From the NCBI GenBank assembly GCA_900696645.1, contig CAADGV010000015.1, positions 1 through 18,728 on the forward strand: DNA of 18,728 nt. Direction: 5' to 3'. Each line of letters opens with the position of its first letter. The stretch's first letter is position 1. Positions 1 to 16,254 of this stretch are shown piece after piece. The notes under the pieces are model-generated. The model was not told the DNA's origin, did not search any database, and saw only the letters and a list, made by a program, of their open reading frames with translations. The position numbers were made by a program, and so were the translations under genes. This DNA comes from an uncultured Chlorobiota bacterium. Lineage in GTDB: Bacteria > Bacteroidota > Ignavibacteria > UBA10030 > UBA6906.

Positions 1-132
1 ACTCTGTTGATCAACGGAGAGGATGTCGAGAACATGCCGGCACCCGAACGACCGTCCGTTGCCTGCCGCTACTATTTGAACGGAATTCCATCACCGGAAG
101 CAATCCGCTCCAGAATTGAGCAACACCTTTAA
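1..132 (+). CDS. 3' end of a probable thioredoxin-fold protein (partial)
   Basis: The first frame is open from the window edge to a TAA at 130-132 and gives 43 residues, so only the C-terminus is visible. The pattern is an LLINGEDVE strand, then a VACRYY segment with one cysteine, then a short helix IPSPEAIRSRIEQHL. From memory this resembles the C-terminal part of thioredoxin-fold proteins related to alkylmercury lyase and glutaredoxin-like families, where a '(S/A)CR(V/L)Y...G.P' segment precedes the last helix; that assignment is inference. A redox role would fit the exported thioredoxin and CcdA-like genes that follow. The next gene starts 19 nt downstream, so this is probably the first visible gene of the same operon. 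Confidence 0.55.
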   Translation, partial: TLLINGEDVENMPAPERPSVACRYYLNGIPSPEAIRSRIEQHL

Positions 133-151
133 TGGATCAAGGAATAACCCA

Positions 152-565
152 ATGAAAAAATATTCTCTCATTCTTGTTGCCCTGATTGCGGTCGGCATGT
201 TCGCAGCAGGTACAGAACAATCGAGAAAAGGCGAATCAGCATCGACCGCCAACGCAAGCAGCAACAAGCCACTGGTGACGTTTGTGGAGTTGGGCTCAGT
301 CAAGTGTATTCCCTGTCGCCAGATGCAACCGGTGATGAAAGCGATTGAAGAAAAGTACGGCGAACAGATAAGCGTCGTGTTCTATGACGTCTGGAAGGAT
401 GACCAGGTACAGTATGCGGACAAGTACCGCATCCGTGTCATTCCCACACAAGTCTTTCTCGACAAAGATGGCAAGGAATTCTTCAGGCACGAGGGGTTCT
501 ACCCTGAAGCAGAAATCGACAAGATTCTTCAGAAACGTGGTCTGAAGATCCTCAAGGGGAAGTGA
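152..565 (+). CDS. Exported thioredoxin-like protein (CIPC active site)
   Basis: A protein of 137 residues. The N-terminus (MKKYSLILVALIAVGMFAAG) is a signal peptide or membrane anchor, followed by a Ser/Ala/Asn-rich linker and a thioredoxin domain. The active site reads VKCIPCRQMQPV, so the classical CGPC is CIPC here. The cis-proline loop is VIPTQVF and the last strand and helix are DGKEFFRHEGFYPEAEIDKIL. The ATG at 152 is preferred over one at 116 because 116 lies inside the preceding frame, whereas 152 has AAGGA eight bases upstream and begins directly with the signal peptide. The next gene, a CcdA-like membrane protein, starts 1 nt after the stop. The pair probably moves reducing equivalents from the cytoplasm to the periplasm, where they could keep the cysteines of c-type cytochromes reduced. 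Confidence 0.9.
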   Translation: MKKYSLILVALIAVGMFAAGTEQSRKGESASTANASSNKPLVTFVELGSVKCIPCRQMQPVMKAIEEKYGEQISVVFYDVWKDDQVQYADKYRIRVIPTQVFLDKDGKEFFRHEGFYPEAEIDKILQKRGLKILKGK

Positions 566-566
566 C

Positions 567-1268
567 ATGCTTGACGAACTGTTTATCTGGCTCAGCACGG
601 CAATCGGCGGAACTTTCGGCGTTGCTCTGTTTGCGGCATTAGGCTGGGGCGTCATCAGCATTATTCTCAGTCCATGCCATCTCTCCAGCATTCCTCTTGT
701 GGTCGGATATATCAGCAGTCAGGGAAAGGATGGAATCCGGCGCTCGTATTCCATCGCTTTAGTGTTCGGAATCGGGATCCTGATCACCATTGGGTTGATT
801 GGGGCGATCACAGCGTCCGCGGGAAGGATGATGGGCGATGTCGGCGTATGGGGAAACGTCATTGTGGCCGGAGTGTTTTTTGTTGTCGGTCTCTACCTCA
901 TGGATGTAATCAATCTGTCGTGGAACGGTTTCATGCCGCAAACCTCGTTTGCCCGCGGTTGGAAAGGCGCGTTGTTGTTGGGACTCATTTTCGGCATCGG
1001 TCTCGGTCCGTGCACATTTGCTTACATGGCACCGGTTCTTGGTGTAGCATTCAGCGTGGCAACGACGAATATGCTTCAGGCCCTCTCCCTCATCGCTGCA
1101 TTCGGGATCGGTCACTGTGCCGTGATTGTCGTAGCGGGAGGTACAGCCGGTACAGTACAGAAGTACCTCAATTGGACGGAACAATCGAAGGGCGCAATAT
1201 GGCTGAAGCGTGGCGCCGGTGTGTTGGTGATGTTGGGGGGAGTGTACTACATCTATACCGCATTCTAA
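567..1268 (+). CDS. CcdA-like membrane thiol electron carrier
   Basis: A 233-residue hydrophobic protein with about six membrane segments (roughly residues 17-34, 38-50, 62-84, 95-115, 134-160 and 168-192, with a further C-terminal hydrophobic stretch at 215-231). Two prolyl-cysteine motifs, SPC at about residue 37 and GPC at about 149, lie in equivalent places of the two halves. This is the hallmark of the CcdA/DsbD family, where the paired cysteines carry electrons across the membrane. A third cysteine is in GHC at about 184. It begins 1 nt after the thioredoxin stop with GGGGAAG just upstream, so the two genes are translationally linked. By family knowledge it would take electrons from cytoplasmic thioredoxin and pass them to the exported thioredoxin. 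It is slightly longer than minimal CcdA. Confidence 0.85.
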   Translation: MLDELFIWLSTAIGGTFGVALFAALGWGVISIILSPCHLSSIPLVVGYISSQGKDGIRRSYSIALVFGIGILITIGLIGAITASAGRMMGDVGVWGNVIVAGVFFVVGLYLMDVINLSWNGFMPQTSFARGWKGALLLGLIFGIGLGPCTFAYMAPVLGVAFSVATTNMLQALSLIAAFGIGHCAVIVVAGGTAGTVQKYLNWTEQSKGAIWLKRGAGVLVMLGGVYYIYTAF

Positions 1269-1358: not shown

Positions 1359-1401
1359 TTGCCATTCGGCAACTATTGCCTTGGAACAATATTTGCCATT
1401 C
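1359..1401 (+). promoter_or_regulatory. Candidate operator: repeated TTGCC sites before the MarR gene
   Basis: TTGCCATTC occurs twice, at 1359-1367 and 1393-1401, 34 nt apart. The first copy continues into GGCAA (1368-1372) to form TTGCC-N4-GGCAA, and GGCAA then pairs again with TTGCC at 1376-1380 across a 3-nt gap. Interleaved inverted repeats just ahead of a MarR-type gene are what an autoregulatory operator usually looks like. That this regulator binds here is inference. Confidence 0.45.
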
Positions 1402-1425
1402 CTGAAGTGTCTCCCTCAAACGATT

Positions 1426-1857
1426 ATGGATGCTCTCCGGGCCGAAGGCCTTTTGCAACTTACATTGGTAACTCAGAAGATCGCCCGCTGTCTGGCAGAC
1501 GATGCCGGACTCAGCGTAAGCGAACTCAACTGTATGCTGCAACTGTATCTTGAAAAGCCGTGCTGTGTTCGCAAACTTACCGAAATGCTCGGTATCGGAA
1601 CAACTTCCACGTCGAAACTTCTTCGTTCATTGGACGGACGGGGATGGTTGACACGCGAGTTGGACCCTGCCGATCGGCGTATGGAGCGGGTTGCACTGAC
1701 GGATAAGGGAGCAGAAGTGGCAAAGCAGATACTCCTCGCAGCGGATAATATCGCAATCCAGATCCTCGATAAACTTCCGGATGAACGTCGCCTGCCATTC
1801 ACAGAGTGTATCACCACCGTAACCCAACACATTAAGACAATATCCAACCACAAATAG
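1426..1857 (+). CDS. MarR-family transcriptional regulator
   Basis: A protein of 143 residues if the ATG at 1426 is the start. A TTG start at 1381 in the same frame would add 15 residues, but it would place one of the repeated TTGCCATTC sites inside the gene; neither start has a strong ribosome site. The fold shows helix 1 (LLQLTLVTQKIARCLADD), then LSVSELNCMLQLYLEKPC, the helix-turn-helix CVRKLTEMLGIGTTSTSKLL, and the wing LDPADRRMERVALTDKG, which is the typical MarR wing signature (D-x-R-R). Cysteines occur in ARCLAD, ELNCML, an adjacent pair at KPCCVRK just before the recognition helices, and TECITT near the end. A thiol-based sensor would suit the neighbours, but this is inference. The split-Soret cytochrome starts 12 nt after the stop, so both are probably one transcript. 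Confidence 0.85.
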   Translation: MDALRAEGLLQLTLVTQKIARCLADDAGLSVSELNCMLQLYLEKPCCVRKLTEMLGIGTTSTSKLLRSLDGRGWLTRELDPADRRMERVALTDKGAEVAKQILLAADNIAIQILDKLPDERRLPFTECITTVTQHIKTISNHK

Positions 1858-1869
1858 AAAGGTTCTCCC

Positions 1870-2988
1870 ATGGATCAATCCATTACCAGAAAAGAATTCC
1901 TGAGGAACGGCACCAAGGTTGCCGCGGGTGCGGCACTCGGTGTGGGGACTCTCCACATGCTCACCGGTTCCCCGGCTCATGCGGACAAGATGGTCACCCC
2001 GTGGCCGTGGCCATATCAAGCGCTTGATGTCGAAGCTGCTCGTATTGCCGGGCATGATGCATATTGGGAAGGAAAGGGATGCTCCTACGGGGCGTTTCAT
2101 GCTATTGCATCACAGTTGCGCACTGTTCTACCCGATCCCTGGAACCAACTGCCGTCAGAGATCATGATCTACGGACACGGCGGCGGTGCCGGCTGGGGGG
2201 CAACGTGCGGCGCATTGAACGGCCCAGCTGCATTGATTTCCCTCGTACTTCTCAAAGCGCGATCCGACGTTCTTATCAGCGACATGTACGGCTGGTACAC
2301 GCAGACATTGTTCCCGACGGACATCAGTAACCAGTATGCTGTGAACCATGTGTTTCACGATAATCGTTGCGATATTATTCTGCCTCAGAACGCCGCCGGC
2401 TCACCTCTTTGTCATCCGTCGGTAACGGAGTGGTGCAAGGTTGCAAACTACACCTCTGACGCGCTCCAGCGCAAGGAACGGTGTGCACGCATCACCGGCG
2501 ATGTTGCCGCCTTTGCAGCGCAGATCCTGAATGAAGAACGTGGCGGAACATTTGTCCCTCGCTACGTGGCTCCATCTATCATTGGCGTGTGCATGAGCTG
2601 TCATGGCGCGGGCCTGACGAACAGGGTCGCTGCCAAGATGGAGTGCACGCAATGCCACGGCACGAACCCGCATCAGACTGCCGTGCAGCACGTCGGCGAT
2701 CCTGCACCTACGTATAAGCTCGGACAGAACTATCCGAACCCGTTCAACCCGGCGACCAATATCGAATTCTCGATTCCGGAGGCCGGAGCGGTGACGCTTG
2801 CGGTGTACGACGTTCACGGACGTCTTGTGAAGAACATTATTGCCAACGAGACTTATTCCAGCGGTACATTCAAGGCTCAATGGGATGGAACGAATGATGC
2901 AGGCATGCGTGCAGCAAGCGGAATCTATTTTGCACGGCTGACCGCAGGAACCTTCAGTGCCGTACAGAAGATGAATCTGGTCAAGTAA
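1870..2988 (+). CDS. Split-Soret-type (C_GCAxxG_C_C family) cytochrome c with type IX sorting domain
   Basis: A 372-residue exported protein. The N-terminus ITRKEFLRNG followed by a hydrophobic stretch (about residues 17-33) and an Ala-rich site resembles a Tat signal with RK in place of RR. Residues about 60-230 carry the cysteine pattern of the split-Soret / C_GCAxxG_C_C family (EGKGCSYGAFHA, WGATCGALNG). Two haem c sites follow: CMSCH at 241-245 and CTQCH at 259-263. From about residue 280 there is a type IX secretion (Por) C-terminal domain: LGQNYPNPFNP, a FlgD-like VYDVHGRLVKN strand pair, GIYFARLTAG and a final KMNLVK. The start has AAAGG seven bases upstream. A hairpin terminator follows. 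Sequence alone suggests a dihaem cytochrome carried to the cell surface or outside; substrate and partner are unknown. The nearby hydrogenase is a possible electron donor. Confidence 0.85.
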   Translation: MDQSITRKEFLRNGTKVAAGAALGVGTLHMLTGSPAHADKMVTPWPWPYQALDVEAARIAGHDAYWEGKGCSYGAFHAIASQLRTVLPDPWNQLPSEIMIYGHGGGAGWGATCGALNGPAALISLVLLKARSDVLISDMYGWYTQTLFPTDISNQYAVNHVFHDNRCDIILPQNAAGSPLCHPSVTEWCKVANYTSDALQRKERCARITGDVAAFAAQILNEERGGTFVPRYVAPSIIGVCMSCHGAGLTNRVAAKMECTQCHGTNPHQTAVQHVGDPAPTYKLGQNYPNPFNPATNIEFSIPEAGAVTLAVYDVHGRLVKNIIANETYSSGTFKAQWDGTNDAGMRAASGIYFARLTAGTFSAVQKMNLVK

Positions 2989-3310: not shown

Positions 3311-3361
3311 GGAAAGACTTGGATTTCTTGTTGACCATTTCTTTAAGAAAGAAATGGTCGA
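3311..3361. repeat. Dispersed repeat, copy 1, with perfect 12-bp hairpin
   Basis: The segment 3311-3351 matches 3533-3573 at 37 of 41 positions. In this copy GACCATTTCTTT (3333-3344) is followed by AAG and its exact complement AAAGAAATGGTC (3348-3359), a 12-bp stem with a 3-nt loop. No T-run follows, so it is more likely a mobile or structural repeat than a terminator. Confidence 0.7.
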
Positions 3362-3532: not shown

Positions 3533-3573
3533 GGAGGGACTTGGGTTTCTTGGTGACCATTTCTTTAAGAAAG
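3533..3573. repeat. Dispersed repeat, copy 2 (truncated hairpin)
   Basis: This matches 3311-3351 at 37 of 41 bases. The 3' arm of the hairpin is missing and replaced by unrelated palindromic DNA (CCCGC...GCGGG), so this copy appears interrupted by another repeat. Confidence 0.65.
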
Positions 3574-3915: not shown

Positions 3916-4869
3916 ATGGCGCATCAGCACGGAATAACACGGAGGGATTTCATCCGTTGGGCTGTTGCAGCGCCGATTGCGGCGAGTACACTGGAGAGTT
4001 TTCTCCCCAAACTTGCCGGCGCTTTGCAAGATGCCATCAAGGAGTATCCCATCATCTGGCTGCAGGCATCCACATGCAGTGGATGTTCCGTATCGGTTAT
4101 CAACACTATTCACCCAAGCATCAAGAACGTCATTCTCGAACAGGTTCTTCCGGGTCACCAGTTAAAACTGATGTATCATGGCACGCTGATGGCCGCAGCC
4201 GGAGAGCTGTCGCTGCAAGCGGCCCGCGAAGCAGCGGAGAAATACCGCGGAAAATACGTCTTGGTAGTCGAGGGCGCAATCCCGACGAAACAGAACGGGA
4301 TCTTTGGTTCGCTCGGAGAGAAAGAAGGCAAGGCCATCAGCATGCTCATGTGGCTGGATCAACTGGGTCGCGATGCAATGGCGACTCTGGCAGTGGGAAC
4401 GTGCGCGGCATACGGCGGATTGTCGGCGGCGAGTCCGAACCCGTCGGGGAGCAAAGGAGTGACCGACGTTTATAAGATGTTGAATATAGCAACGCCGGTC
4501 ATCAACATCCCCGGATGCCCGCCGCATCCCGACTGGTTCATCGGGACAGTGGCGAAGATACTCTTGTACGGTATGCCACAGCCAAAGGAACTCGACGATA
4601 ATGGACGGTTGAAGTTGTTCTATGGACGCTCGATTCATAGTCGATGCATCTATCGAGATTACCTTGATCTTGGCATCTTTGCATCGAACTTCGGGCAGGA
4701 AGGCTGTTTGATGGAACTCGGCTGCAAAGGCCCTTTCACGAATGCCGATTGTCCTGTCCGCTTATGGAACGGCAGTGTCAACTGGTGCATTAATGCAGGT
4801 GGTCCGTGTATCGGATGCACAGAGCCCGGTTTTCCGGATGCCCATTCCCCAATCTATCAGAGAAGGTGA
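3916..4869 (+). CDS. hyaA: [NiFe] hydrogenase small subunit, Tat-exported, no membrane anchor
   Basis: A 317-residue electron-transfer subunit of a group 1-type (periplasm-facing uptake) hydrogenase. The Tat signal is ITRRDFIRW at residues 7-15. Proximal cluster ligands are C54 and C57 (STCSGC), C163 (GTCAAYGG) and C201 (PGCPPHPDW). The distal cluster is H241, C244, C264 and C270, and the medial 3Fe-4S cluster uses C279, C298 and C301 within DCP...PCIGCTEPGFPD. The proximal site has the standard Gly rather than the extra cysteines of oxygen-tolerant enzymes. The protein ends nine residues after GFPD, so the C-terminal membrane helix of HyaA-like subunits is missing. AAAGG lies eight bases before the start. 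The large subunit begins 6 nt after the stop. The gene symbol denotes family membership only. Confidence 0.95.
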   Translation: MAHQHGITRRDFIRWAVAAPIAASTLESFLPKLAGALQDAIKEYPIIWLQASTCSGCSVSVINTIHPSIKNVILEQVLPGHQLKLMYHGTLMAAAGELSLQAAREAAEKYRGKYVLVVEGAIPTKQNGIFGSLGEKEGKAISMLMWLDQLGRDAMATLAVGTCAAYGGLSAASPNPSGSKGVTDVYKMLNIATPVINIPGCPPHPDWFIGTVAKILLYGMPQPKELDDNGRLKLFYGRSIHSRCIYRDYLDLGIFASNFGQEGCLMELGCKGPFTNADCPVRLWNGSVNWCINAGGPCIGCTEPGFPDAHSPIYQRR

Positions 4870-4875
4870 CACACC

Positions 4876-6366
4876 ATGGAAACGATCAGAGCACATGTGG
4901 TTATAGATCCGCTGACACGGATTGAAGGTCACCTCAAGATCGAGGCAACGGTCGAAAACAAGAAGGTCGTTGAAGCAAAATGTGCAGGGACACTGTACCG
5001 GGGATTCGAACAGATTCTTGCGGGTCGGAATCCCCTGGATGCGATTCAGATTACGCAGAGGTTCTGCGGTGTCTGTCCGACCCCGCATGCAATAGCATCT
5101 GCACAGGCGCTGGAGAATGCATTTGGCATCATGCCCCCTGACAATGGGCGGGTTATTCGTAATATCATGCAGGGTGCAAACTACATTCAGTCACATATCT
5201 TGCATTTCTATCACTTGGCATCTCTCGATTACTTCCGCGGTCCCGACGTGCCGCCGTTCATTCCACGGTATGAGTCCGATTACCGGGTCCCGCAAACGGT
5301 GCACGACCAGCTTGTGAGCCACTACGTACAGGCGTACCAGATTCGTCTCAAAGCGCATGAGCTTTCGGCTATATGGTCCGGGAAGATGCCTCACGTTGCT
5401 TCCATGGTTCCGGGCGGCGTCAGTATCATCCCCCGCCTCGACAATATCACCACATCCCTGTGGCGCCTGAAGGAACTGACGGACTTCATTGACAATGTCT
5501 ACATTCCCGATGTGATGACGCTGGGCGAGATTTATCGTGACTGTTTCCAGCTCGGCATCGGCAACAAGAATCTTCTTTCGTTTGGACTGTTTGATCTTGA
5601 TGCCGAACCCGACGTGATGAAGCGAAAGCGATTCTTCCCCATGGGGAGAATGACGAAGGGAAAAATCGAGCCGGTCGATGCACAAAGGATAACGGAAGAT
5701 GTGAAATCGTCGTGGTACGATTCGCCGAGCCGGGTACACCCGACGAGAGGTGAAACCATGCCCAACCCTGTAAAAAAAGGGGCGTACAGTTGGCTCAAGT
5801 CACCCCGATACGAAGGAGAAGTATACGAGGTCGGCCCGTTGGCACGGATCGCCATGGCATATGAGCGAAAGACAAATCCCAAGGTCGTACAACTTGTAGA
5901 CAGTAAGTTGCAACAGCTTCAGCTCGGCCCTGATGCCCTCTATTCCGTTATGGGAAGGCATCTTGCACGGGCACTGGAATGTAAAATAGTTGCCGATGAA
6001 ATCAGTTCGATGATTATGCAGGTCAAGTTGGATGAACCCGTATGCACCAATCACACAATTCCCGATAGTGCGCAAGGGATGGGACTTTGGTGTGCTGCGC
6101 GCGGGGCACTCGGTCATTGGATTGAGATCAAGAACGGAAAGATTGCACGCTACCAAGCCGTCGTTCCCACAACTTGGAATGCGTCACCGAAAGATGATAA
6201 AGGGAAACCGGGTCCGATTGAACAGGCAATGATCGGAACGACGGTTGAGGATACGGAGAACCCGTTTGCGTTGGCACGGATTGTTCGCTCGTTCGATCCG
6301 TGCATTGCTTGTGCAATTCATATACTTGAGCCCGGGAAATCCCTCAAGAAGTTCAGAGTGGTGTAG
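4876..6366 (+). CDS. hyaB: [NiFe] hydrogenase large (catalytic) subunit
   Basis: A 496-residue subunit that carries the NiFe(CN)2CO centre and interconverts H2 with protons and electrons. The conserved L0 motif DPLTRIEGH is at 11-19 and the N-terminal nickel motif RFCGVCPTPHA gives C64 and C67. The C-terminal motif DPCIACAIH gives C476, C479 and H482. Fourteen residues follow His482 and would be removed by the maturation endopeptidase encoded by the next gene. There is no signal peptide of its own, as usual, because the folded subunit is exported with the Tat-tagged small subunit. Length and motif order match group 1 enzymes and all nickel-ligand cysteines are present as ordinary Cys codons. 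Metal-centre assembly genes (hypA-F) are not in the window. Confidence 0.96.
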   Translation: METIRAHVVIDPLTRIEGHLKIEATVENKKVVEAKCAGTLYRGFEQILAGRNPLDAIQITQRFCGVCPTPHAIASAQALENAFGIMPPDNGRVIRNIMQGANYIQSHILHFYHLASLDYFRGPDVPPFIPRYESDYRVPQTVHDQLVSHYVQAYQIRLKAHELSAIWSGKMPHVASMVPGGVSIIPRLDNITTSLWRLKELTDFIDNVYIPDVMTLGEIYRDCFQLGIGNKNLLSFGLFDLDAEPDVMKRKRFFPMGRMTKGKIEPVDAQRITEDVKSSWYDSPSRVHPTRGETMPNPVKKGAYSWLKSPRYEGEVYEVGPLARIAMAYERKTNPKVVQLVDSKLQQLQLGPDALYSVMGRHLARALECKIVADEISSMIMQVKLDEPVCTNHTIPDSAQGMGLWCAARGALGHWIEIKNGKIARYQAVVPTTWNASPKDDKGKPGPIEQAMIGTTVEDTENPFALARIVRSFDPCIACAIHILEPGKSLKKFRVV

Positions 6367-6384
6367 GAAGCAGAGCCGGATCAG

Positions 6385-6867
6385 ATGAAGAAGGACGTTC
6401 TCATTCTCGGCGTTGGCAATCTTCTGCTGGGTGATGAAGGAGTTGGTGTGCATGTGGCTCAACAACTCCTTCAATTGCCTTTGCCCGGCAACGTGGAGGT
6501 GCTTGATGGTGGAACAGTAGGATATGAACTGCTTCCCTATTTGGAGGGAAAAGCGCAAGTAATTCTCGTGGACGCTGTCCATGCCGATTGTGAACCGGGT
6601 ACGTTGCTCCGTTTCAACGAGGCGGATGCGGAGTTGCAGTGGCCGCCATCATACTCTTCCCACCAAAGTGGACTTCGTGAACTGCTCGATGGGGCGAAGA
6701 TGCTTGTCCCGCCTCCCGAAATCGTTGTATATGGGATTGTTCCGCGTGACATGTACCGCCTGACAATTGGACTCAGCCGCGAGGTGCATCGTCGGATACC
6801 CGCCATTCTTTCAGTGATCATGGATGAAATCCAGAGTCTGAGCCGAAAGACCGGTGCTGTTCCGTGA
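6385..6867 (+). CDS. hyaD: Hydrogenase maturation endopeptidase (HyaD/HybD family)
   Basis: A 160-residue cytoplasmic protease that clips the C-terminal peptide off the large subunit once nickel is inserted. The N-terminal ILGVGNLLLGDEGVGVH is the family signature. The three expected nickel-sensing residues are present: E18 in GDEGVG, D63 in LVDAVH and H93 in SSHQSG. The length is normal for the family. It starts 18 nt after the large-subunit stop, with only a weak purine-rich stretch upstream, and probably shares the hydrogenase transcript. Which of the hyaD, hybD or hupD names applies cannot be decided from sequence. No obvious terminator follows. A loose GTGAAAACAAA / TTTGTTTTTCAC pairing about 20-90 nt downstream is the nearest candidate. 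Confidence 0.93.
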   Translation: MKKDVLILGVGNLLLGDEGVGVHVAQQLLQLPLPGNVEVLDGGTVGYELLPYLEGKAQVILVDAVHADCEPGTLLRFNEADAELQWPPSYSSHQSGLRELLDGAKMLVPPPEIVVYGIVPRDMYRLTIGLSREVHRRIPAILSVIMDEIQSLSRKTGAVP

Positions 6868-7065: not shown

Positions 7066-7100
7066 CTAGACAGGTTTTCGCAGTTGTCGTGGACCATTGG

Positions 7101-7550
7101 TTGGGTGCGGATAACATCGTGTCCTTGCAAGACATGGTACGGGACGGAGTCCCGCGCTACGCCTTGTTGTAGGGCGATTCTCCTGAATCGCCTTACGCGG
7201 ATTCAGCCACGACGGGCCCCGTTGGGGTCGGGTGCGGGTGGCCTTGTGGCTTTGGTAAGGCATGATACGGGACGGAGTCCCGCGCTACGCCTTGTTGTAG
7301 GGCAATTCTCCTGAATCGCCTTTACGCGGATTCAGCCACGACGGGCGCCGTTGGGGTCGGGTGCGGGTGAGTTCGTGTCCTTGCAAGACATGGTACGGGA
7401 CGGAGTCCCGCGCTACGCCTTGTTGTAGGGCGATTCTCCTGAATCGCCTTACGCGGATTCAGCCCGACGGGCCCCGTTGGGGTCGGGTGCGGGTGAGTTT
7501 GTGTCCTTGCAAGACATGGTACGGGACGGAGTCCCGCGCTACGCCTTGTG
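7101..7550. repeat. Tandem repeat array, about 3.5 copies of a 128-bp unit
   Basis: The landmark GGGACGGAGTCCCGCGCTAC recurs at 7141, 7269, 7397 and 7523, giving spacings of 128, 128 and 126 nt. The last copy breaks off at CTACGCCTTGTG near 7550. Each full unit holds the hairpins GGGAC-GGA-GTCCC and CCCC-GTT-GGGG. Each also holds a 28-29 nt palindrome that begins GTAGGGC and ends TTAC (7169-7196, 7297-7325, 7425-7452). Copy 2 differs in the stretch before its landmark (7240-7264). Open frames cross the array on both strands, but only because the sequence is repetitive. There are no unique spacers, so it is not a CRISPR array. Confidence 0.85.
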
Positions 7551-7864
7551 GACACTTGATAATTTCGGTTGCTTTTGCTATTGTACATGCCAAGGATTTG
7601 ACTCCCCTACCCGTCTGCGCTATCAGGGGCGCGGACAACAATATCTACAAGTGTTACCCACCTCGGTCCAGGTAACGGGGTGCCGTACGCTGAGGCGTAC
7701 ATACGTTTATTCGTGACCGCGTATTATGCCGGTCGTTGATTTGGCACAAAGACCTGTTATAGGGGAAATGATTCACAAGCGGAACAACCAGCGCTATAGG
7801 GGCGACACTGCTTCAACAAATGAATTTTTCCATTGACCTCTGTCCCATAGATACCTGATACTGC
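7551..7864. other. Leader region before the defence operon
   Basis: No gene is seen. GTTACC (7653-7658) pairs with GGTAAC (7671-7676), and GTACGC-TGAG-GCGTAC forms a hairpin at 7685-7700. A weak promoter-like pair, TTGATT (7736-7741) and TATAGG (7758-7763) with 16 nt between, matches the sigma-70 consensus at only four of six bases each. TATAGGGG recurs at about 7794. No ribosome-binding site is evident before the ATG at 7865. Confidence 0.35.
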
Positions 7865-10800
7865 ATGCCCAAAATATTCGACAACATTGAACTGCAACTT
7901 CTTGAGGGTTTGAAATACACTCTTGATGTTTCACATCGAGCAGATTTCTGCGTTGGGTATTTTAACCTGCGCGGGTGGAAACAAGTTGCTGACAGTATTG
8001 AAACCTGGGTCGGCGGCGAGGGGAAACAATGCCGGCTGCTTGTGGGAATGCAGCGCAGACCGGAGGAGTTGGTGCGTGAGATGTTCTCAACAAAAGAACC
8101 TGAGCTCATAGATCAGGCAACAGCGGTCAAACTCAAGAAACTGCTGGCGCAAGATTTCAAAGATCAACTCACAATCGGATTGCCCACTGAAGCAGATGAA
8201 AAAGGATTGCGTAAGCTCTCCACTCAAATCAAGAGCAAACGGGTTGTTGTCAAGTTGTTTCTGCGACATTCCCTACATGCCAAGTTATATCTCCTCTTCC
8301 GAGATGACAAGATCAGCCCCATTATTGGATACGTCGGCAGCAGTAATCTGACCCTTGCCGGGCTGAAGAACCAGGGAGAACTCAACGTTGATGTCGTGGA
8401 GCAAGATGCCGCACAGAAGCTGTCAACGTGGTTCAATGACAGGTGGGATGACCGTTGGTGCATTGACATCTCCGACGAGCTTGCTCAGATCATTGATGAG
8501 AGCTGGGCCACTGAGCAACTGCGGTTACCCTACCATATTTACATCAAGATGGCGTACCATCTTTCACGGGAGGCGATTGCTGGCATCTCACAATTCACAA
8601 TCCCGCCAATCTTTCAGAAAGAATTGCTGGAGTTTCAACAGAAGGCGGTACAAATTGCAGCCCATCATCTCAACAGTCCGAATCGGGGCGGAGTGCTTAT
8701 TGGTGACGTTGTTGGCTTTGGGAAGACGATTACCGCAACAGCACTCGCAAAGGTATTCGAAGAAGACTTCTTTCTTGAAACGCTCATCATCTGTCCAAGG
8801 AATCTTGTGAGAATGTGGGAAGACTACGTGTACAAATACAAGCTACACGCCCGAGTCATCTCTATCTCACAAGTGCAGTCGATCCTACCGAAGGAACGTC
8901 GCTACCGGGTCGTACTCATCGACGAGAGCCACAATTTGCGCAATCGTGAGGGTAAGAGGTACAGGGCAATCCATGAGTACATTCAGTTGAATGAGAGCAA
9001 GGTCATTCTCCTTACTGCGACACCGTACAACAAAACCTATTACGATCTGTCGAACCAACTACGGCTATTCATCCAGGAAGACAAAGATCTTGGCATTGCA
9101 CCCGAACGCTTCATTGCAGATTTGGGGGGACAAGTGCAATTCATGGCAAAGTACCAATATCCGGCACGATCACTTCTGGCCTTTGAAAAAAGTGAGTACG
9201 CCGATGATTGGCGTGAACTGATGCGATTGTTCATGGTTCGACGGACACGGAGCTTCATAAAGGACAACTACGCCAAGACTGATCCGGCAGATACCAGGAA
9301 GTACCTTGAATTCGCCGACGGACGACGTTCGTATTTCCCAGATAGAATTCCCAAGAAAGTAGAGTATGAATTCGACCCCGCGGATCCATCCGACCAGTAT
9401 GCGAGGCTCTATTCGCAAAAGGTTGTTGACACACTTGATCGACTGACGCTCGCCCGCTATGGACTCGGCAGGTTCCTGGAAGACAGGCCCCTCATCAAGC
9501 CAACGAAAGAAGAGCTTGTCGTTATTGACAACCTTTCACGGGCCGGAAAGCGCCTGATGGGATTCTGCCGCACGAATTTATTCAAACGGCTGGAAAGCAG
9601 CGGACACGCATTCCTGCTCTCAATTGCACGGCATGTTCTCAGAAATTTTGTGTATGCCTATGCGCTGGAGGAGAACCTCGCTTTGCCCATCGGTCCCCAG
9701 GAATCGAACCTGCTCGATGAGTTTCTCGATGACGAGGATTTTGACAAGCCCGCGGGAAACCAACTCAGGCTGATGTTGAGGGAAGACGAGTATTACGAGC
9801 AAGCAAGCGCTGTGTATGATTTGTATCGCCGAGAATTCAAAGACCGACTCGATTGGATTCGTGCCGGCCTGTTTCAGCCGTCACTGAAACAATCCTTGAT
9901 CGATGATGCGAAAGAGCTTCTGAAGATTCTCAACATGGCGAAGACTTGGAATGCCGATAAAGATCGCCAGCTGAAAGCTCTTCAAGAACTCTGCTCCGAG
10001 CGCCATCCCAAGGAAAAGATACTTGTATTTACGCAGTTTGCAGATACAGCCGACTATCTCTACGAGCAACTCAAACGAACGGGAATAGACCGGATAGAAT
10101 GTGTTACGGGAGATTCGGAAGATCCTACGGAATATGCTTACCGGTTCAGCCCGGTAAGTAACGAAAGAACCGAGGTAAAGGGAACGAAAGAGGAGATCCG
10201 TGTTCTTATCTCAACTGATGTACTGAGCGAAGGACAGAATCTCCAAGACTGCCACATTATAGTGAACTTTGATTTGCCTTGGGCACTTATTCGACTGATT
10301 CAGCGGACAGGGCGCGTCGACCGGATTGGCCAGCAATCCGAGAGAATCCTATGCTATTCATTCCTTCCGGAAGACGGACTTGAGAACATCATTCAACTCC
10401 GCACAAGACTCAGAAATCGGATTCAGCAGAATGCGGAAGTGGTCGGTTCTGATGAGGTGTTTTTTGAAGGAGACCCTATCAATCTTTCAGATCTCTATAA
10501 CGAGAAAGCAGGCATACTCGATCAAGAAGACGAGGGGGAAGTTGATCTTGCCTCTTATGCCTATCAAATCTGGAAGAATGCTATTGATGCGGATCCGTCT
10601 CTCAAGAAAACCATCAGCGAGCTTCCCAACGTCGTGTACGCAACAAAGGCACATCCTGATGCCGATAAGGCAACCGAAGGTGTGGCTGTGTACACACGAA
10701 CAGCAGATGACAATGATATTCTTGCCTGGATGAACGCCAAGGGAGAGATTGTTACGCAATCACAACTTGCAATACTGAAGGCAGCGGAGTGTACATCGGA

Positions 10801-11203
10801 GACGAAGGCACTCCACCGGTTGGAGAATCACCATGAGCTGGTGCAGTCTGCGATGGGTCAAATACGCGAGGTTGAAAGTAACGTCGGGGGGCAATTGGGA
10901 AAGAAAACGGGCGCAAAGTACCGAACGTTCATGCGCCTGACACGATACCTCGAAGAAAACAAGGACACACTGTTCGCAACCGAGGCATTGAAGAGGGCGC
11001 TCGATGACATCTACAAGTACCCGTTACGTGAGTCTGCGCGAGAAACTCTGAACCGGCAACTCAAAACCGGACTTGATGATGCTCAGCTTGCCGACCTTGT
11101 TGTTGCCCTGCGCGAGGAAGATAAGCTCTGCATCATAGATCAAAAGGAAGTAGAGCGGCGCGAACCTCAAATCATCTGTTCACTTGGATTCAAAGTAGAA
11201 TAG
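7865..11203 (+). CDS. PLD-nuclease / SNF2-type helicase fusion, defence-associated
   Basis: A protein of 1112 residues. Residues 1-200 form a phospholipase-D-like nuclease domain with one HxK site (H138, K140) followed by YVGSSNLT (about 156-163). The helicase half has Walker A GDVVGFGKT (280-288), DESH at 353-356 and LLTATPYN (382-389). The C-terminal RecA lobe runs from KILVFTQF (about 718) through STDVLSEGQNLQ to QRTGRVDRIGQ (813-823). About 290 further residues show no motif I recognise. The start is supported by the family-like opening MPKIFDNIE...RADFCVGYFNLRGW. By family knowledge this is an ATP-driven DNA translocase with a nuclease head, paired with a methyltransferase that marks self DNA. 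The methyltransferase starts 3 nt after the stop. It resembles the SNF2 component of DISARM class 1 in size and pairing, but drmA, drmB and drmC are absent here. Confidence 0.9.
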   Translation: MPKIFDNIELQLLEGLKYTLDVSHRADFCVGYFNLRGWKQVADSIETWVGGEGKQCRLLVGMQRRPEELVREMFSTKEPELIDQATAVKLKKLLAQDFKDQLTIGLPTEADEKGLRKLSTQIKSKRVVVKLFLRHSLHAKLYLLFRDDKISPIIGYVGSSNLTLAGLKNQGELNVDVVEQDAAQKLSTWFNDRWDDRWCIDISDELAQIIDESWATEQLRLPYHIYIKMAYHLSREAIAGISQFTIPPIFQKELLEFQQKAVQIAAHHLNSPNRGGVLIGDVVGFGKTITATALAKVFEEDFFLETLIICPRNLVRMWEDYVYKYKLHARVISISQVQSILPKERRYRVVLIDESHNLRNREGKRYRAIHEYIQLNESKVILLTATPYNKTYYDLSNQLRLFIQEDKDLGIAPERFIADLGGQVQFMAKYQYPARSLLAFEKSEYADDWRELMRLFMVRRTRSFIKDNYAKTDPADTRKYLEFADGRRSYFPDRIPKKVEYEFDPADPSDQYARLYSQKVVDTLDRLTLARYGLGRFLEDRPLIKPTKEELVVIDNLSRAGKRLMGFCRTNLFKRLESSGHAFLLSIARHVLRNFVYAYALEENLALPIGPQESNLLDEFLDDEDFDKPAGNQLRLMLREDEYYEQASAVYDLYRREFKDRLDWIRAGLFQPSLKQSLIDDAKELLKILNMAKTWNADKDRQLKALQELCSERHPKEKILVFTQFADTADYLYEQLKRTGIDRIECVTGDSEDPTEYAYRFSPVSNERTEVKGTKEEIRVLISTDVLSEGQNLQDCHIIVNFDLPWALIRLIQRTGRVDRIGQQSERILCYSFLPEDGLENIIQLRTRLRNRIQQNAEVVGSDEVFFEGDPINLSDLYNEKAGILDQEDEGEVDLASYAYQIWKNAIDADPSLKKTISELPNVVYATKAHPDADKATEGVAVYTRTADDNDILAWMNAKGEIVTQSQLAILKAAECTSETKALHRLENHHELVQSAMGQIREVESNVGGQLGKKTGAKYRTFMRLTRYLEENKDTLFATEALKRALDDIYKYPLRESARETLNRQLKTGLDDAQLADLVVALREEDKLCIIDQKEVERREPQIICSLGFKVE

Positions 11204-11206
11204 CCT

Positions 11207-14200
11207 ATGTCTATCAAGAAAGCCGATTTCTTCCGCTACATCAAACAGTTTGAACTGAAGGAACTCTTCAACGAACTTGGTTGGAATCGGGTAAAGCTCT
11301 CCTATCCCGTGCCTATTGATGAGCAGAACTATTCCCTCATAGGCATCGCCGAGAAGAAGAATTTTGTGATTTTCCTCTGTGAAACACCGCAAGGAAAGAA
11401 CATCCCGGATTCAGCGGTACGGCGTAAGATTGACAATGTGATTGCAAAACTCCACCACGAGCATCTGATCATCTATGCCGACGGGAACAAGACCCGCCAG
11501 CGATGGGAGTTGCTCATTCGAGAAGAAAACAAGCCGGTAGTCTGTCGCCCTGTCGATTACTACAAGGGACAGGAACCCGAATTGCTGTTCCAAAAACTTG
11601 AAGGACTCTTCTTCTCGTTCGACGACGAGGAGAAATTGACGATCGTGGATGTTCGCTCCCGTGTGATGGCAAACTTCGAGAAGAACGCAGAGGTCGTCAC
11701 CAAGAAATTCTATGAGAAGTTCAGCAAGGAACACGGGAAGTTCCTCGGCTTCATCAAGGGCATCCAGAGCAAGGTGGATCAGGAGTGGTATGCCTCACTC
11801 ATGCTCAACCGGCTCATGTTCATCTACTTCATTCAGAAGAAGGGCTTCCTCGATAAGAACAAGGACTACCTTCGTACCCGGCTCAAGGCTGTCCAATCAA
11901 GGAAGGGAAAAGACAAGTTCTACTCCTTCTACAGAAGCTTCCTCCTCGTCCTCTTTCACAAAGGACTCGGCTCTCCGCTTCGGGATGCGGAGATCGAGGC
12001 AGAAATCGGCAAGGTTCCCTACCTCAACGGCGGTTTGTTTGATGTACACAAGCTCGAACAGGAAAACAAGAACATCACCATCGAGGACAAGGCCTTCGAG
12101 CGGATCTTCGATTTCTTCGACGAATACAACTGGCATCTCGATACACGCGTCACAGCCACCGGCAAAGACATCAACCCGGATGTTATCGGGTACATCTTCG
12201 AGAAGTACATCAACGACCGGGCGGCGATGGGGGCGTATTATACCAAAGAGGACATCACCGAGTATATCAGCAAGAATTGCATTGTGCCGTGGTTGTTCGA
12301 TGAGGTGAAGAGGAATTATCCAAAGCCGTTTTCCGTAGGGACGCACGGCCGTGCGTCCCTACAAGGAAACATCTGGTCCTTCCTCCAGCACAGCGGCGAT
12401 ACATACATCTATCCCGCCGTCAAGCATGGGATCCCCAACGCAGGTGTAGGGGTGGAACATGTTCCGCCCGCACAGGTCGAGGAGGATTTCTCCGATCTCC
12501 CTGAAGACGTTCGTTCCTGCATAGACCCCAACACCCCCGACCTTGTCGAGAAGCGCAAATGCTGGAACCGTCCCGCCCCGCCGGAGATTGCCCTGCCAAC
12601 CGAGATTTACCGTGAAGTGATTGCCCGCCGCAAGCGCTACTACGAGGTGCGGAAGAAGATAGAGCGTGGCGAGATCACCGAGATCAACAACTTCATCACC
12701 TACAACCTCAACATTCGTCAGTTTGCGCAGGATGTGTTGGAGCAGACGGATGACCCGAAGCTGATCATGGAGTTCTACAAAGCCGTGCGCAAGATTACCG
12801 TGCTCGACCCGACGTGCGGCTCAGGGGCATTCCTCTTCGCAGCGCTCAACGTCTTGGAGCCGTTGTACTTTGCGTGCGTGACTCGTATGCGCGAGTTCAT
12901 TGAACAGGATGCCCGCCACGAAGGGGACGGGCAGGGCAAGCCCGCCACAAAGAGGGCAGGCAGGCACAAGTTCTTCGAGGAGCAGATTGCGCTCATAGAC
13001 TCCGACGACCATCCCAGCGAGGAGTACTTTATCTACAAGTCCATCATCCTGCACAACCTGTACGGCGTGGACATTATGAAGGAGGCGGTAGAGATTGCCA
13101 AGCTCCGTCTCTTCCTCAAGCTTGTGGCAACGTGCGACGTGGACTATGCAAAGCCTAACCTTGGACTTGAGCCGCTGCCGGATATTGACTTCAACATCCG
13201 CTCGGGCAATACGCTCGTTGGCTATGCGACTCTTGCAGACCTCGACAAAGGCGAGCAGGGTGGGTTGTTTGGCAACGAAGAGAAGCAGGCGATACTCGAA
13301 GAATCCGACGTGGTGAGCAGGGCGTACGCACGGTTTAAGGATGCGCAATTGGTGATGAACACCAACCCGAAGTCGTACAAGGATGCAAAAGACGATCTGA
13401 ACAAGCGTCTAACAGTCCTCAACGACAAGCTCAACAAGTATCTTGCAGTAGCGTATCTCGACGCCTCGTACAGCAAGAAGGCTTTTGATACGTGGATCGC
13501 CTCTCACCAGCCGTTCCATTGGCTGGCGGAGTACTACTGGATTATTGCTGAGGGTGGGTTTGATGTGATTATCGGGAATCCACCTTTTATCGAAGTCAGG
13601 GATATACCTTACGAGGTGAAGGGATTGCGTACGCTTGATACAGCAGCCGTTCATGCAATGTGTGTTGAACGCAGCCTGCAAGTCTCGGGCGAAAAGGCCA
13701 GCATCAGTATGGTATACCCGATGTCATTGGTATCAACGCAAAGAATGAAATCTGTCCAGATTCTCTTGGAGAGCGAGGGCGAATCTTGGTATGCAAATTT
13801 TGCCTGGAGACCAGCGAAACTGTTCGATGAGGTGAATAGGGCAATCTCGATTCTTGTCCATCGTCCTGCTGCGCAAACTCGGGCGTGGTCCACAGGGTAT
13901 GTGAAATGGACTTCCGAAAACCGGTGCAATCTTATTCCTACTGTGGCGTATGTCGAAGTCCCAACCACAAGAAGCTACCACTGGATTCCAAAGTTCTCAA
14001 ACAGCGTTGAGAGCACTATTCTAAAGAAGATGTTTGATTCCAAGAACACTCTTTCCAAATTCTTCTCGTCATCAAAATTCCGTGTATACTACCGAACAAC
14101 CGGCGGTTTGTACTGGAAGGTATTCACAGACTTTGCTCCGGCATTCAAGGTTAAGGGGAAGAGTGGACATTCGTCTAGGGAGACGTGGTTCGCCGTTTCA

Positions 14201-14596
14201 TCTGAGGATCATGTTAAGCCAATCGTAGCATGTCTCAGCAGCAACCTGTTCTGGTGGTGGTATACAATCACCAGCAACCTCAGGGACCTAAACCCATCTG
14301 ACATTGCCAATTTTCCGGTTCGGGGATCCATCGTCAACGATGAAACAGCACGCAAGGTGGGTGCTAGGTACTTAGCTGACATTGTTGCCAAGAGTACGAT
14401 GCTCGTCAGAGAGCAGAAACAGACTGGACGAACAGAAACTCAATCGTTCAAGATTCAAGCCTCCAAGCCCATCATCGACGAGATCGACAAAGTGTTGGCG
14501 AAGCATTACGGCTTCACGCCGGAGGAGTTGGATTTTATTATCAATTACGATATCAAGTATCGGATGGGCAAGGAGCTGGGGGGAGAGGATGGCTAG
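11207..14596 (+). CDS. Eco57I/PglX-like adenine-specific DNA methyltransferase
   Basis: A protein of 1129 residues. The N-terminal 150 residues are a variable domain without a clear nuclease motif, followed by a helical region. The AdoMet site is VLDPTCGSGAFL (532-543), with NLYGVDIMKEAVEIAKLRL as the next motif and NPPF at 791-794, the N6-adenine methyltransferase signature. Residues about 800-1080 should be the target-recognition part. The end SKPIIDEID...YGFTPEELDFIINYDIKYRMG is the usual C-terminus of this family. Two 28-nt palindromes are inserted in frame at residues 377-386 and 414-423, and a repeat-like insertion lies near 569-586, all in or near linkers. There is no separate specificity subunit. 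Its last 8 nt overlap kwaA. The role inferred is host-DNA marking for the PLD-helicase, possibly with restriction by the same pair. Confidence 0.92.
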   Translation: MSIKKADFFRYIKQFELKELFNELGWNRVKLSYPVPIDEQNYSLIGIAEKKNFVIFLCETPQGKNIPDSAVRRKIDNVIAKLHHEHLIIYADGNKTRQRWELLIREENKPVVCRPVDYYKGQEPELLFQKLEGLFFSFDDEEKLTIVDVRSRVMANFEKNAEVVTKKFYEKFSKEHGKFLGFIKGIQSKVDQEWYASLMLNRLMFIYFIQKKGFLDKNKDYLRTRLKAVQSRKGKDKFYSFYRSFLLVLFHKGLGSPLRDAEIEAEIGKVPYLNGGLFDVHKLEQENKNITIEDKAFERIFDFFDEYNWHLDTRVTATGKDINPDVIGYIFEKYINDRAAMGAYYTKEDITEYISKNCIVPWLFDEVKRNYPKPFSVGTHGRASLQGNIWSFLQHSGDTYIYPAVKHGIPNAGVGVEHVPPAQVEEDFSDLPEDVRSCIDPNTPDLVEKRKCWNRPAPPEIALPTEIYREVIARRKRYYEVRKKIERGEITEINNFITYNLNIRQFAQDVLEQTDDPKLIMEFYKAVRKITVLDPTCGSGAFLFAALNVLEPLYFACVTRMREFIEQDARHEGDGQGKPATKRAGRHKFFEEQIALIDSDDHPSEEYFIYKSIILHNLYGVDIMKEAVEIAKLRLFLKLVATCDVDYAKPNLGLEPLPDIDFNIRSGNTLVGYATLADLDKGEQGGLFGNEEKQAILEESDVVSRAYARFKDAQLVMNTNPKSYKDAKDDLNKRLTVLNDKLNKYLAVAYLDASYSKKAFDTWIASHQPFHWLAEYYWIIAEGGFDVIIGNPPFIEVRDIPYEVKGLRTLDTAAVHAMCVERSLQVSGEKASISMVYPMSLVSTQRMKSVQILLESEGESWYANFAWRPAKLFDEVNRAISILVHRPAAQTRAWSTGYVKWTSENRCNLIPTVAYVEVPTTRSYHWIPKFSNSVESTILKKMFDSKNTLSKFFSSSKFRVYYRTTGGLYWKVFTDFAPAFKVKGKSGHSSRETWFAVSSEDHVKPIVACLSSNLFWWWYTITSNLRDLNPSDIANFPVRGSIVNDETARKVGARYLADIVAKSTMLVREQKQTGRTETQSFKIQASKPIIDEIDKVLAKHYGFTPEELDFIINYDIKYRMGKELGGEDG
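12335..12362. repeat. Perfect 28-nt palindrome inside the methyltransferase gene
   Basis: GTAGGGACGCACGG is followed immediately by its exact reverse complement, with no loop. It starts on the first base of codon 377 and, with two more bases, encodes VGTHGRASLQ, adding ten codons without breaking the frame. As I recall the family, homologues lack this stretch between the PKPF and GNIWSFLQ segments. Confidence 0.9.
12446..12473. repeat. Second, imperfect 28-nt palindrome inside the methyltransferase gene
   Basis: It begins GTAGGGGTGGAACA, and 11 of its 14 mirrored positions are complementary plus one G-U. It has the same length, the same GTAGGG start and the same codon phase as the element at 12335, beginning exactly 37 codons later. 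It encodes VGVEHVPPAQ. It looks like an older, partly decayed member of the same family. Confidence 0.7.
12911..12964. repeat. Two 25-nt direct repeats inside the methyltransferase gene
   Basis: The stretches 12911-12935 and 12940-12964 both start GCCCGCCAC and end GCAGG and agree at 21 of 25 positions, separated by GCAA. Together they encode a low-complexity ARHEGDGQGKPATKRAG stretch between two conserved helices. This suggests a third repeat-derived in-frame insertion. A similar GCCACAAGGACGGC motif occurs in the decayed copy near 16403. Confidence 0.55.
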
Positions 14597-15224
14597 CGCA
14601 CACAGACAACAACGCCTCCACCGCGGTGTGCAGTTTTCTTTGTTTGCCACCTCCTACACACCTCTGTTCGTTCTGATCATCCTGCGACAGCTGTTCCAAA
14701 ACGGAAACAAACTCACCAACGCATCAACCACGGGAGAGTTTGTCACCATCATCGCTGCGGATTTCCTCCTTTCGCTAATGCTAATAACTCTCATATGCAT
14801 GGGAATGTTTGGCTTGGTGGCATCCTTAAAGAACTTGAACGTCCGAGCGAAGCAGAACGGTGTTCGCGTGTCAATCACCAACGTTCAGAATCGAAGCGGC
14901 GAAGCGATAAGTTACATTGGAACGTATATCATCCCGTTCCTTTTCCAGGATTACTCCGGATGGTACGAGGTACTGTCCGTCCTGTTTCTATTGTATGTCA
15001 TTTACAGAATCTACATCCATTCGTCCCTGCTGCTCATCAACCCGCTTCTTAACCTTCGGTATTCTCTGTTTGAGATTGGCTTCATCGAGGAGCAGAACGG
15101 TCGACAAAGAACAGGCATGATGATTACTCGGAATAGATTTCTTCAAGAGGGTGATAGCCTCTTGATTTATCCACTGGGTCAAAAACTCTACTTGGGAGTC
15201 ATGAACGATGAAGAAGGAAGCTGA
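14589..15224 (+). CDS. kwaA: Kiwa defence membrane protein KwaA
   Basis: A 211-residue integral membrane protein. Hydrophobic segments lie at about residues 16-36, 51-79, 107-121 and 125-152, giving roughly four helices. A polar cytoplasmic loop with NVRAKQNGVRVS separates the second and third. The stretch ISYIGTYIIPFLF, then LLLINPLLNLRYSLFEI and a soluble C-terminal part fit my recollection of KwaA. The assignment is strengthened by the KwaB-type gene that follows. The ATG at 14589 overlaps the methyltransferase end by 8 nt, and a purine-rich AAGGAG/GGGGGAGAGG tract precedes it; the open frame extends further upstream only as a shadow of that gene. In Kiwa, KwaA is the membrane component thought to sense phage at the envelope and to act with KwaB. 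Confidence 0.8.
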   Translation: MASAHRQQRLHRGVQFSLFATSYTPLFVLIILRQLFQNGNKLTNASTTGEFVTIIAADFLLSLMLITLICMGMFGLVASLKNLNVRAKQNGVRVSITNVQNRSGEAISYIGTYIIPFLFQDYSGWYEVLSVLFLLYVIYRIYIHSSLLLINPLLNLRYSLFEIGFIEEQNGRQRTGMMITRNRFLQEGDSLLIYPLGQKLYLGVMNDEEGS

Positions 15225-16254
15225 ACTTCGCGGGCTCTTGGATTCCATATCAAGGCGGCCGCCACCCGCTGTGAGACTCTACTTCGTTTCAAGGCGGCTC
15301 AAATCCGAAACGACGAGGGCTTCTCGCGTTATGCAGAAGTACACGTTCCATCTCCACCAATTGGACATTGATGAAGATCTGCGCCGGATGTTTCTCGATA
15401 TGATGAGAGAACAGTTGGAGAAGATCATGGCAGATAATGACCTTAGCCTTGCCGCATATGAGATCATCGATGATGACGAACCGAAGCTGTATACGTATCA
15501 GCTGCAAAACAAGGCAATGTCGTTTGCGGATGTGACGAAACATCAGCTGATGCGGGGAGTCGATATCCCCTCGGTCCAGGACATAGGTGCATTTCTTGGA
15601 GAACATGAGTTGTGGGCGTTTTGCCTCGATGTCACACCTGAGAAGGGGGATCGGTTCACCACTTTCACGAAAACAACTCCCGGCAGAGTCGCAATTGACG
15701 AGAGGGAGAACCCTGAAAGGCTGCTGCCGTCAAGAGTCTTGCGTACCCTGTTCAACTCAACGAATTCCATGCTGGAGCTTCTCCACGGTGACACGGTCAA
15801 CTTCGATAAGAGAATGGACTGCTTGTATCGATTCAAAGATGATAGGTTCTTCATATTCCACAAGAAGCATTTTGAGAAGATAGTGTCACTGGAAGAAGAG
15901 TACAAGGAATCAGCCGGTCGTGTCGTTGATGACCTTGAGGCATCTACAATGATTGTTGGCCTTGATGCTGTGAAGGATGAGTTGGAAGGAAACCCGACAA
16001 TTCACAGGAGGCTGCACAAGATTGCACAAGCCGCCGACTATAAGAAATTGGACAGGACTCGAGTGAAGAAAATGATTATGACGGCGAAGTCATTTGGCCT
16101 GCAATTGAAAATCAAGAGTGGTAAACTCCACGTTGAGGATAGGCACGACTTAGACCTTGTTGTGAGGATGTTGGACGACTATTTCTTGGAGAGCAAGCAG
16201 ACCGGAAACAAGTATGGTGCGTCCGTGAAGAAGCGATGGATGGCCCAGGGGTGA
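15208..16254 (+). CDS. kwaB: Kiwa defence effector KwaB (DUF4868)
   Basis: A 348-residue soluble protein. The DUF4868 pattern is recognisable: LWAFCLDVTP...FTTFTKTTPGR, a GDTVNFDKRMDCLYRFKDDRFFIFHKKHFEKI core, and a C-terminal part with a SFGLQLKIKSGKLHVEDRHDLDLVVRMLDD segment and SKQTGNKYGASVKKRW. The start ATG at 15208 lies 17 nt before the kwaA stop and has GGGAG nine bases upstream. This tight overlap matches the two-gene Kiwa arrangement. By established knowledge KwaB partners KwaA and contributes DNA-directed anti-phage activity. Here it is the last gene of an operon that starts with a PLD-helicase and a methyltransferase, which is not part of the minimal Kiwa definition. Directly downstream lies a broken duplicate of the methyltransferase 3' end. 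Confidence 0.85.
   Translation: MKKEAELRGLLDSISRRPPPAVRLYFVSRRLKSETTRASRVMQKYTFHLHQLDIDEDLRRMFLDMMREQLEKIMADNDLSLAAYEIIDDDEPKLYTYQLQNKAMSFADVTKHQLMRGVDIPSVQDIGAFLGEHELWAFCLDVTPEKGDRFTTFTKTTPGRVAIDERENPERLLPSRVLRTLFNSTNSMLELLHGDTVNFDKRMDCLYRFKDDRFFIFHKKHFEKIVSLEEEYKESAGRVVDDLEASTMIVGLDAVKDELEGNPTIHRRLHKIAQAADYKKLDRTRVKKMIMTAKSFGLQLKIKSGKLHVEDRHDLDLVVRMLDDYFLESKQTGNKYGASVKKRWMAQG

Follow-up and report, generated by a model that had tools for sequence, protein, structure and literature searches.

A split-Soret cytochrome c of Ignavibacteria with a Tat-like RK leader and a type IX (type A) sorting domain

How a c-type cytochrome comes to carry both a leader resembling a Tat signal and the C-terminal tail of type IX secretion (T9SS) cargo, and where in the cell such a protein would act, is the question raised by a gene in the 18,728-nucleotide stretch of DNA from an uncultured Chlorobiota bacterium that was analysed here and is referred to as the window. 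The open reading frame is intact, begins with ATG and encodes 372 amino acids, with the N-terminal sequence MDQSITRKEFLRNGTKVAAGAALG. Its parts are as follows.

1870..2988, + strand: split-Soret cytochrome c with Tat-like RK leader and type IX (type A) sorting domain, 372 aa
1870..1986, + strand: leader, residues 1-39, with n-region MDQSI, then T6-R7-K8-E9-F10-L11-R12 and a weakly hydrophobic h-region
1987..2664, + strand: split-Soret domain, about residues 40-265, with conserved C71, C113, C181, H182, C189 and C205
2590..2604, + strand: haem c site 1, C241-M-S-C-H245 (CxxCH)
2644..2658, + strand: haem c site 2, C259-T-Q-C-H263 (CxxCH)
2704..2985, + strand: T9SS type A C-terminal sorting domain, about residues 279-372, YKLGQNYPNPFNP ... 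MNLVK

A sequence-only reading of the window had noted that a leader, a split-Soret domain, two CxxCH sites and a type IX tail are joined in one protein, and our analysis confirms this observation. The idea that the architecture is a chance or assembly fusion of unrelated pieces can for practical purposes be dismissed, as the same arrangement occurs in 56 distinct sequences from independent assemblies, some of them single-contig genomes. These 56 sequences form our family set, in which 53 leaders are readable and 52 relatives were aligned. Of the 391 genomes of the class that were sampled, 66 gave split-Soret matches in our family search (two of them through weak, short frames), with one copy in nearly all, and among 395 genomes drawn from the phylum the 26 hits all fell within the class Ignavibacteria. 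The closest relatives in named records come from metagenome assemblies of Ignavibacteriae, at 71% and 65% identity. In 50 or more relatives the leader, the haem sites and the tail are kept as a set and, judged by sequence, the pairing of a Tat-like leader with a surface tail is kept over much of the class.

The central domain is that of the split-Soret cytochrome c of Desulfovibrio desulfuricans ATCC 27774 (1h21; NF047622). Residues 40-265 match 1h21 with an E-value of 7.4e-32 (phmmer), and the Pfam family C_GCAxxG_C_C is matched at 40 bits against a cut-off of 27. The match to NF047622 (149.3 bits, E 1.4e-43) lies below the equivalog cut-off of 400, placing the protein outside that equivalog. 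The best structural match of an AlphaFold2 model (mean pLDDT 74, with the leader below 50) was again 1h21 (Z 26.3, rmsd 2.9, 219 of 240 residues), whose entry title names a novel iron centre. Besides the fold, the two proteins have in common the pair of C-terminal CxxCH sites, a further histidine and five non-haem cysteines; at 31-32% identity they differ in that the Desulfovibrio chain ends at the haem sites, whereas here the T9SS tail comes after them. C71, C113, C181, C205, H182 and both CxxCH sites show no change across the 52 aligned relatives, 92% of which also have C189; in the alignment all of these correspond to residues of 1h21. The cysteines from C71 to C205 are those of the C_GCAxxG_C_C pattern. 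H62 is likewise invariant in the Ignavibacteria family, with a tyrosine at the 1h21 equivalent, and is a candidate haem ligand. We take the iron centre of the Desulfovibrio protein to be [2Fe-2S] and each of its haems to be ligated by a histidine from the other monomer; with haem shared in this way, a dimer may have to pass the translocon protein SprA.

The tail had been described as a full type IX C-terminal domain, and its sequence matches one: residues 288-368 score above the curated cut-offs of both TIGR04183 (36.8 bits, cut-off 23) and PF18962 (30.6 bits, cut-off 27). The model of residues 279-372 matches the C-terminal domains of PorU (6za2, Z 10.4) and mirolase (8qb1, Z 8.3), which came among general beta-sandwich matches. 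SprA is encoded in the genome (850 bits, joined 1131), together with about 150 other T9SS tails. Tail sequence and modelled fold are shared with T9SS type A cargo. The earlier reading had also proposed looking for the domain in other family members, and all 26 full or nearly full members scanned match both the T9SS sorting domain and the split-Soret model. We conclude that the protein is T9SS surface cargo, with a probability of roughly 0.85, and probably a secreted, surface-anchored split-Soret cytochrome c. The proposal that a folded redox protein is placed on the cell surface is thus well supported, by the split-Soret domain, the intact tail, the SprA and TatC genes and the tailed relatives. 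T9SS substrates have been described as Sec-dependent (PMC9251779), and our literature search, which covered few subscription journals, returned no paper joining T9SS with cytochromes or Tat cargo. Typical type A cargo has a Sec leader, and in this genome the 156 other tailed frames are without a Tat-like leader, which the cytochrome has as the sole member of the 157.

This leader can be read in two ways: as a Tat signal in which lysine has become fixed in place of the second arginine, or as the relic of an ancestral RR substrate that is now RK and exported by Sec like other T9SS cargo, in which case the periplasm would be the place where cluster and haems are inserted, unless the cluster has been lost. 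The pair is RK in 50 of the 53 readable leaders and KR, RH and RG in one each, and the absence of RR from all of them favours a relic. By motif the protein is not a canonical Tat substrate, since ITRKEFLR lacks the consecutive arginines of S/T-R-R-x-F-L-K, and no model in a Tat HMM search reached its cut-off on this leader, a failure that also sits well with a relic. A relic would be expected to drift, yet the consensus, [LI]-[TS]-R-K-[DEQ]-F-L-x-N-x-x-K-Y-A-x-G, keeps the T, first R, F, L and later basic residue of the Tat motif, and R1 (52/53), K2 (50/53), F4 (53/53), L5 (52/53), K10 (50/53) and G14 (52/53) are near-fixed over many families of the class. Sec leaders need no such fixed positions, and this position-by-position fixation looks like selection on a motif. 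The h-region, too, argues against a relic, its hydrophobicity (Kyte-Doolittle, 13-residue window) being below that of almost all Sec leaders of tailed proteins: it is 1.39 here, with a family mean of 1.76, against a mean of 2.51 for 141 other T9SS-tailed proteins with an assignable leader, a mean that took in only leaders scoring at least 1.6, while values of 1.4 or less turn up in 7 of the 156 other frames once this cut is lifted. Some of the T9SS-tailed frames have no leader in the open frame. S-P-A-H-A stands ahead of the mature part and is a putative cleavage site.

Outside the family, 1.4 Mb of DNA contained two convincing Tat-like leaders, both RR, and RK as a habit of the whole clade was ruled out. 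One of the two belongs to the hydrogenase small subunit of the same window, and such retention of RR within one genome speaks for a relic, as does the Sec-type leader of every other multihaem T9SS cargo; the iron-sulphur cysteines, on the other hand, remain invariant. On balance a relic appears rather unlikely to us, and the more likely reading of the leader is that of a Tat signal inherited by the family, in which the RK variant has become fixed. What stands of the Tat-type leader claimed earlier is the Tat-like motif, with its R, F and L; the pair itself is RK rather than RR, and the Tat HMMs all stay below their cut-offs.

An inherited Tat signal makes Tat the route across the inner membrane that we favour from these sequences, with reasonable though not strong confidence. 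TatC is encoded in this genome (246 bits) and in all 52 good genomes having the cytochrome; because it is found in 327 of 337 good genomes of the class anyway (97%), its presence discriminates little, and co-occurrence with TatC was rejected as a test of Tat export. A cluster made in the cytoplasm, as the C_GCAxxG_C_C cysteines suggest, would give a reason for Tat. In E. coli, Tat export continues, though it can be slower, when lysine takes the place of the second arginine (summarised in PMC1182353). Salmonella TtrB (KR) and engineered variants of TorA and SufI (PMC1182353) likewise have one lysine in the pair and the remaining motif intact, whereas in the present case an entire natural family has RK as its norm. 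Twin-arginine leaders are predicted in archaeal split-Soret cytochromes (PMC4429474), and the Shewanella split-Soret cytochrome SO0939 is a putative Tat substrate (PMC3623810), so that Tat export would be an inherited trait of the family and not a new one. These proteins belong to the same family, with no T9SS tail reported, and are twin-arginine where those described here are RK throughout. Among the plasmid records that we searched there were no split-Soret relatives, and for leaders in other phyla we rely on the same two papers. In short, a known cytochrome fold has here received a new address label, and its leader is a natural RK variant shared by the family.

What the protein might do at the surface was approached through its gene neighbourhood, compared in 33 loci including the window. 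Three genes precede it here.

116..565, + strand: exported thioredoxin-like protein (CIPC), beside the CcdA-like gene
567..1268, + strand: CcdA/DsbD-like membrane protein, with weak NCBIfam matches
1381..1857, + strand: MarR-type regulator, 12 nt upstream of the cytochrome gene

The real start of the thioredoxin-like gene is probably an internal ATG at about 152. A thioredoxin lies within a few genes of the cytochrome in six loci and a CcdA-like gene in nine, and ArsR and permease genes are often present; it is plausible that the CcdA/DsbD-like protein supplies reductant for haem attachment, and a related role may be supposed for the thioredoxin-like protein. The MarR gene is paired with the cytochrome in nine loci, with the same gap of 12 nt at locus L104 as in the window. 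A different regulator, a sigma-54 activator with a PAS domain, occurs at the cytochrome in ten loci together with a small protein without a Pfam match. The latter is a conserved protein of about 150 aa encoded directly upstream of the cytochrome and behind the activator, as at L103 (9109-9564, - strand) and nine other loci. At L104, L108 and L119 the cytochrome gene adjoins genes for GcvH-like, 4Fe-4S and NrfD proteins, with a sensor kinase and a sigma-54 regulator (9706-15389 at L104, with equivalents at L108 and L119). The sensor kinase has CxxCH-like motifs in its sensor part.

It had been suggested that the protein could be an extracellular electron outlet. This is possible but doubtful: the cytochrome has two haems, and no MtrB/PioB porin of an Mtr-type conduit was found in this genome. 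Clear MtrB/PioB matches occur in 3 of 44 genomes having the cytochrome. In favour of the suggestion, the genome encodes three further multihaem cytochromes with T9SS tails.

L171, 61..2202, - strand: T9SS-tailed multihaem cytochrome, 8 CxxCH
L137, 52..1920, - strand: T9SS-tailed multihaem cytochrome, 5 CxxCH
L201, 194..3058, + strand: T9SS-tailed multihaem cytochrome, 4 CxxCH

These share c-type haem motifs and the T9SS tail with the protein at 1870-2988, and differ from it in having 4-8 haems, hydrophobic Sec-type leaders and MtrC/MtrF-like or ethylbenzene-dehydrogenase-like domains; two of them match the MtrC/MtrF-like domain above cut-off. With such proteins encoded, surface electron transfer stays plausible.

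The protein could instead be a surface redox enzyme, a scavenger or a sensor of small molecules (oxygen species, NO, metal or sulphur compounds) that is induced by a dedicated regulator and is no electron outlet. This alternative fits the Tat/T9SS route and competes on function only, and we consider it a real contender, if still short of an even chance. In its favour are the regulators directly upstream, MarR or PAS/sigma-54; ArsR, methyltransferase and permease genes lie close to several copies, and the mere two haems accord with it. When two split-Soret genes of D. alaskensis were mutated, no phenotype was seen in the conditions examined (PMC4215793), which weighs against an outlet and for a role outside energy metabolism, and ssc of D. 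desulfuricans is listed with lowered expression under NO (PMC5701242). Against it are the surface multihaem cytochromes just described and the NrfD/4Fe-4S membrane module that adjoins the cytochrome gene in three loci; in Melioribacter, NrfCD modules have been proposed to hand quinol electrons to periplasmic cytochromes (PMC3534657). A further possibility is that the cytochrome is a periplasmic partner of the [NiFe] hydrogenase (3916-6366), with its tail unused or secretion only partial. The hydrogenase genes do lie 0.9 kb downstream on the same strand, and the D. alaskensis split-Soret proteins have been called periplasmic (PMC4215793). The hydrogenase is, however, absent near the gene in all 32 other loci compared, so that a conserved partnership was ruled out, and the T9SS tail is intact in every member scanned; we regard such a partnership as improbable.

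The remainder of the window has features of its own. The region 3916-6867 (+ strand) encodes small and large subunits of a [NiFe] hydrogenase of the NiFeSe-like group and a maturation protease, with a cysteine at the usual selenocysteine place and an RR Tat leader on the small subunit. The long gap between cytochrome and hydrogenase contains two 41-nt direct repeats that are 90% identical (3311-3351 and 3533-3573), and between the hydrogenase genes and a defence island there are four tandem copies of a 110-nt unit, spaced at 126-128 nt (7099-7590). A PLD/SNF2-type helicase with an Eco57I-like methylase (7865-14596, + strand) and a UvrD-type helicase (16486-18609, + strand) make up an island of restriction or defence genes on this short contig. 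The Kiwa defence system is represented by a KwaB-like protein at 15208-16254 (+ strand; 47 bits, cut-off 26), and the membrane protein without a Pfam match just before it (14382-15224, + strand) is probably its KwaA partner.

The cytochrome itself looks like a small electron carrier with haem and iron-sulphur cofactors, and it seems designed for passage through the inner membrane in the folded state and later display on the surface. By analogy with 1h21, the apoprotein would gain its iron-sulphur cluster in the cytoplasm through the C_GCAxxG_C_C cysteines, and the folded protein would then pass the inner membrane by Tat, using the variant leader in which lysine replaces the second arginine. 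Two c-type haems would be attached in the periplasm by a CcmF/CcsA-type system, for which the genome encodes proteins (ResB of system II haem attachment was not found in it), while the adjacent thioredoxin/CcdA pair may keep the CxxCH cysteines reduced. The type A tail would direct the folded protein through SprA. T9SS cargo is trimmed and anchored by a sortase, and the same would be expected here. Once at the outer face of the outer membrane, the protein might relay electrons over short distances, perhaps in concert with the multihaem cytochromes of the same cell that also have a T9SS tail; a relay at this site is plausible. Taken as a whole, from cytoplasmic cluster to outer-face relay, we give this route about an even chance. 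A more tentative idea, which we would put a little below even, is that Ignavibacteria have a Tat-to-T9SS route dedicated to a cytochrome loaded with its cofactors, in which the natural, fixed RK signal perhaps serves to hold back export until the iron-sulphur cluster has been inserted.

Some uncultured Ignavibacteria of groundwater and sludge increase on Fe(III) supply (PMC11495043), and to the possible surface redox set of such organisms the present family adds a diheme, iron-sulphur type of protein. Its fixed RK leader offers a natural test case for the requirement of a second arginine in Tat export. Should Tat indeed feed into T9SS, the translocon of the outer membrane would take cargo that has been folded and loaded with a metal cofactor in the cytoplasm, and a wider range of proteins could be displayed on the surfaces of these bacteria.
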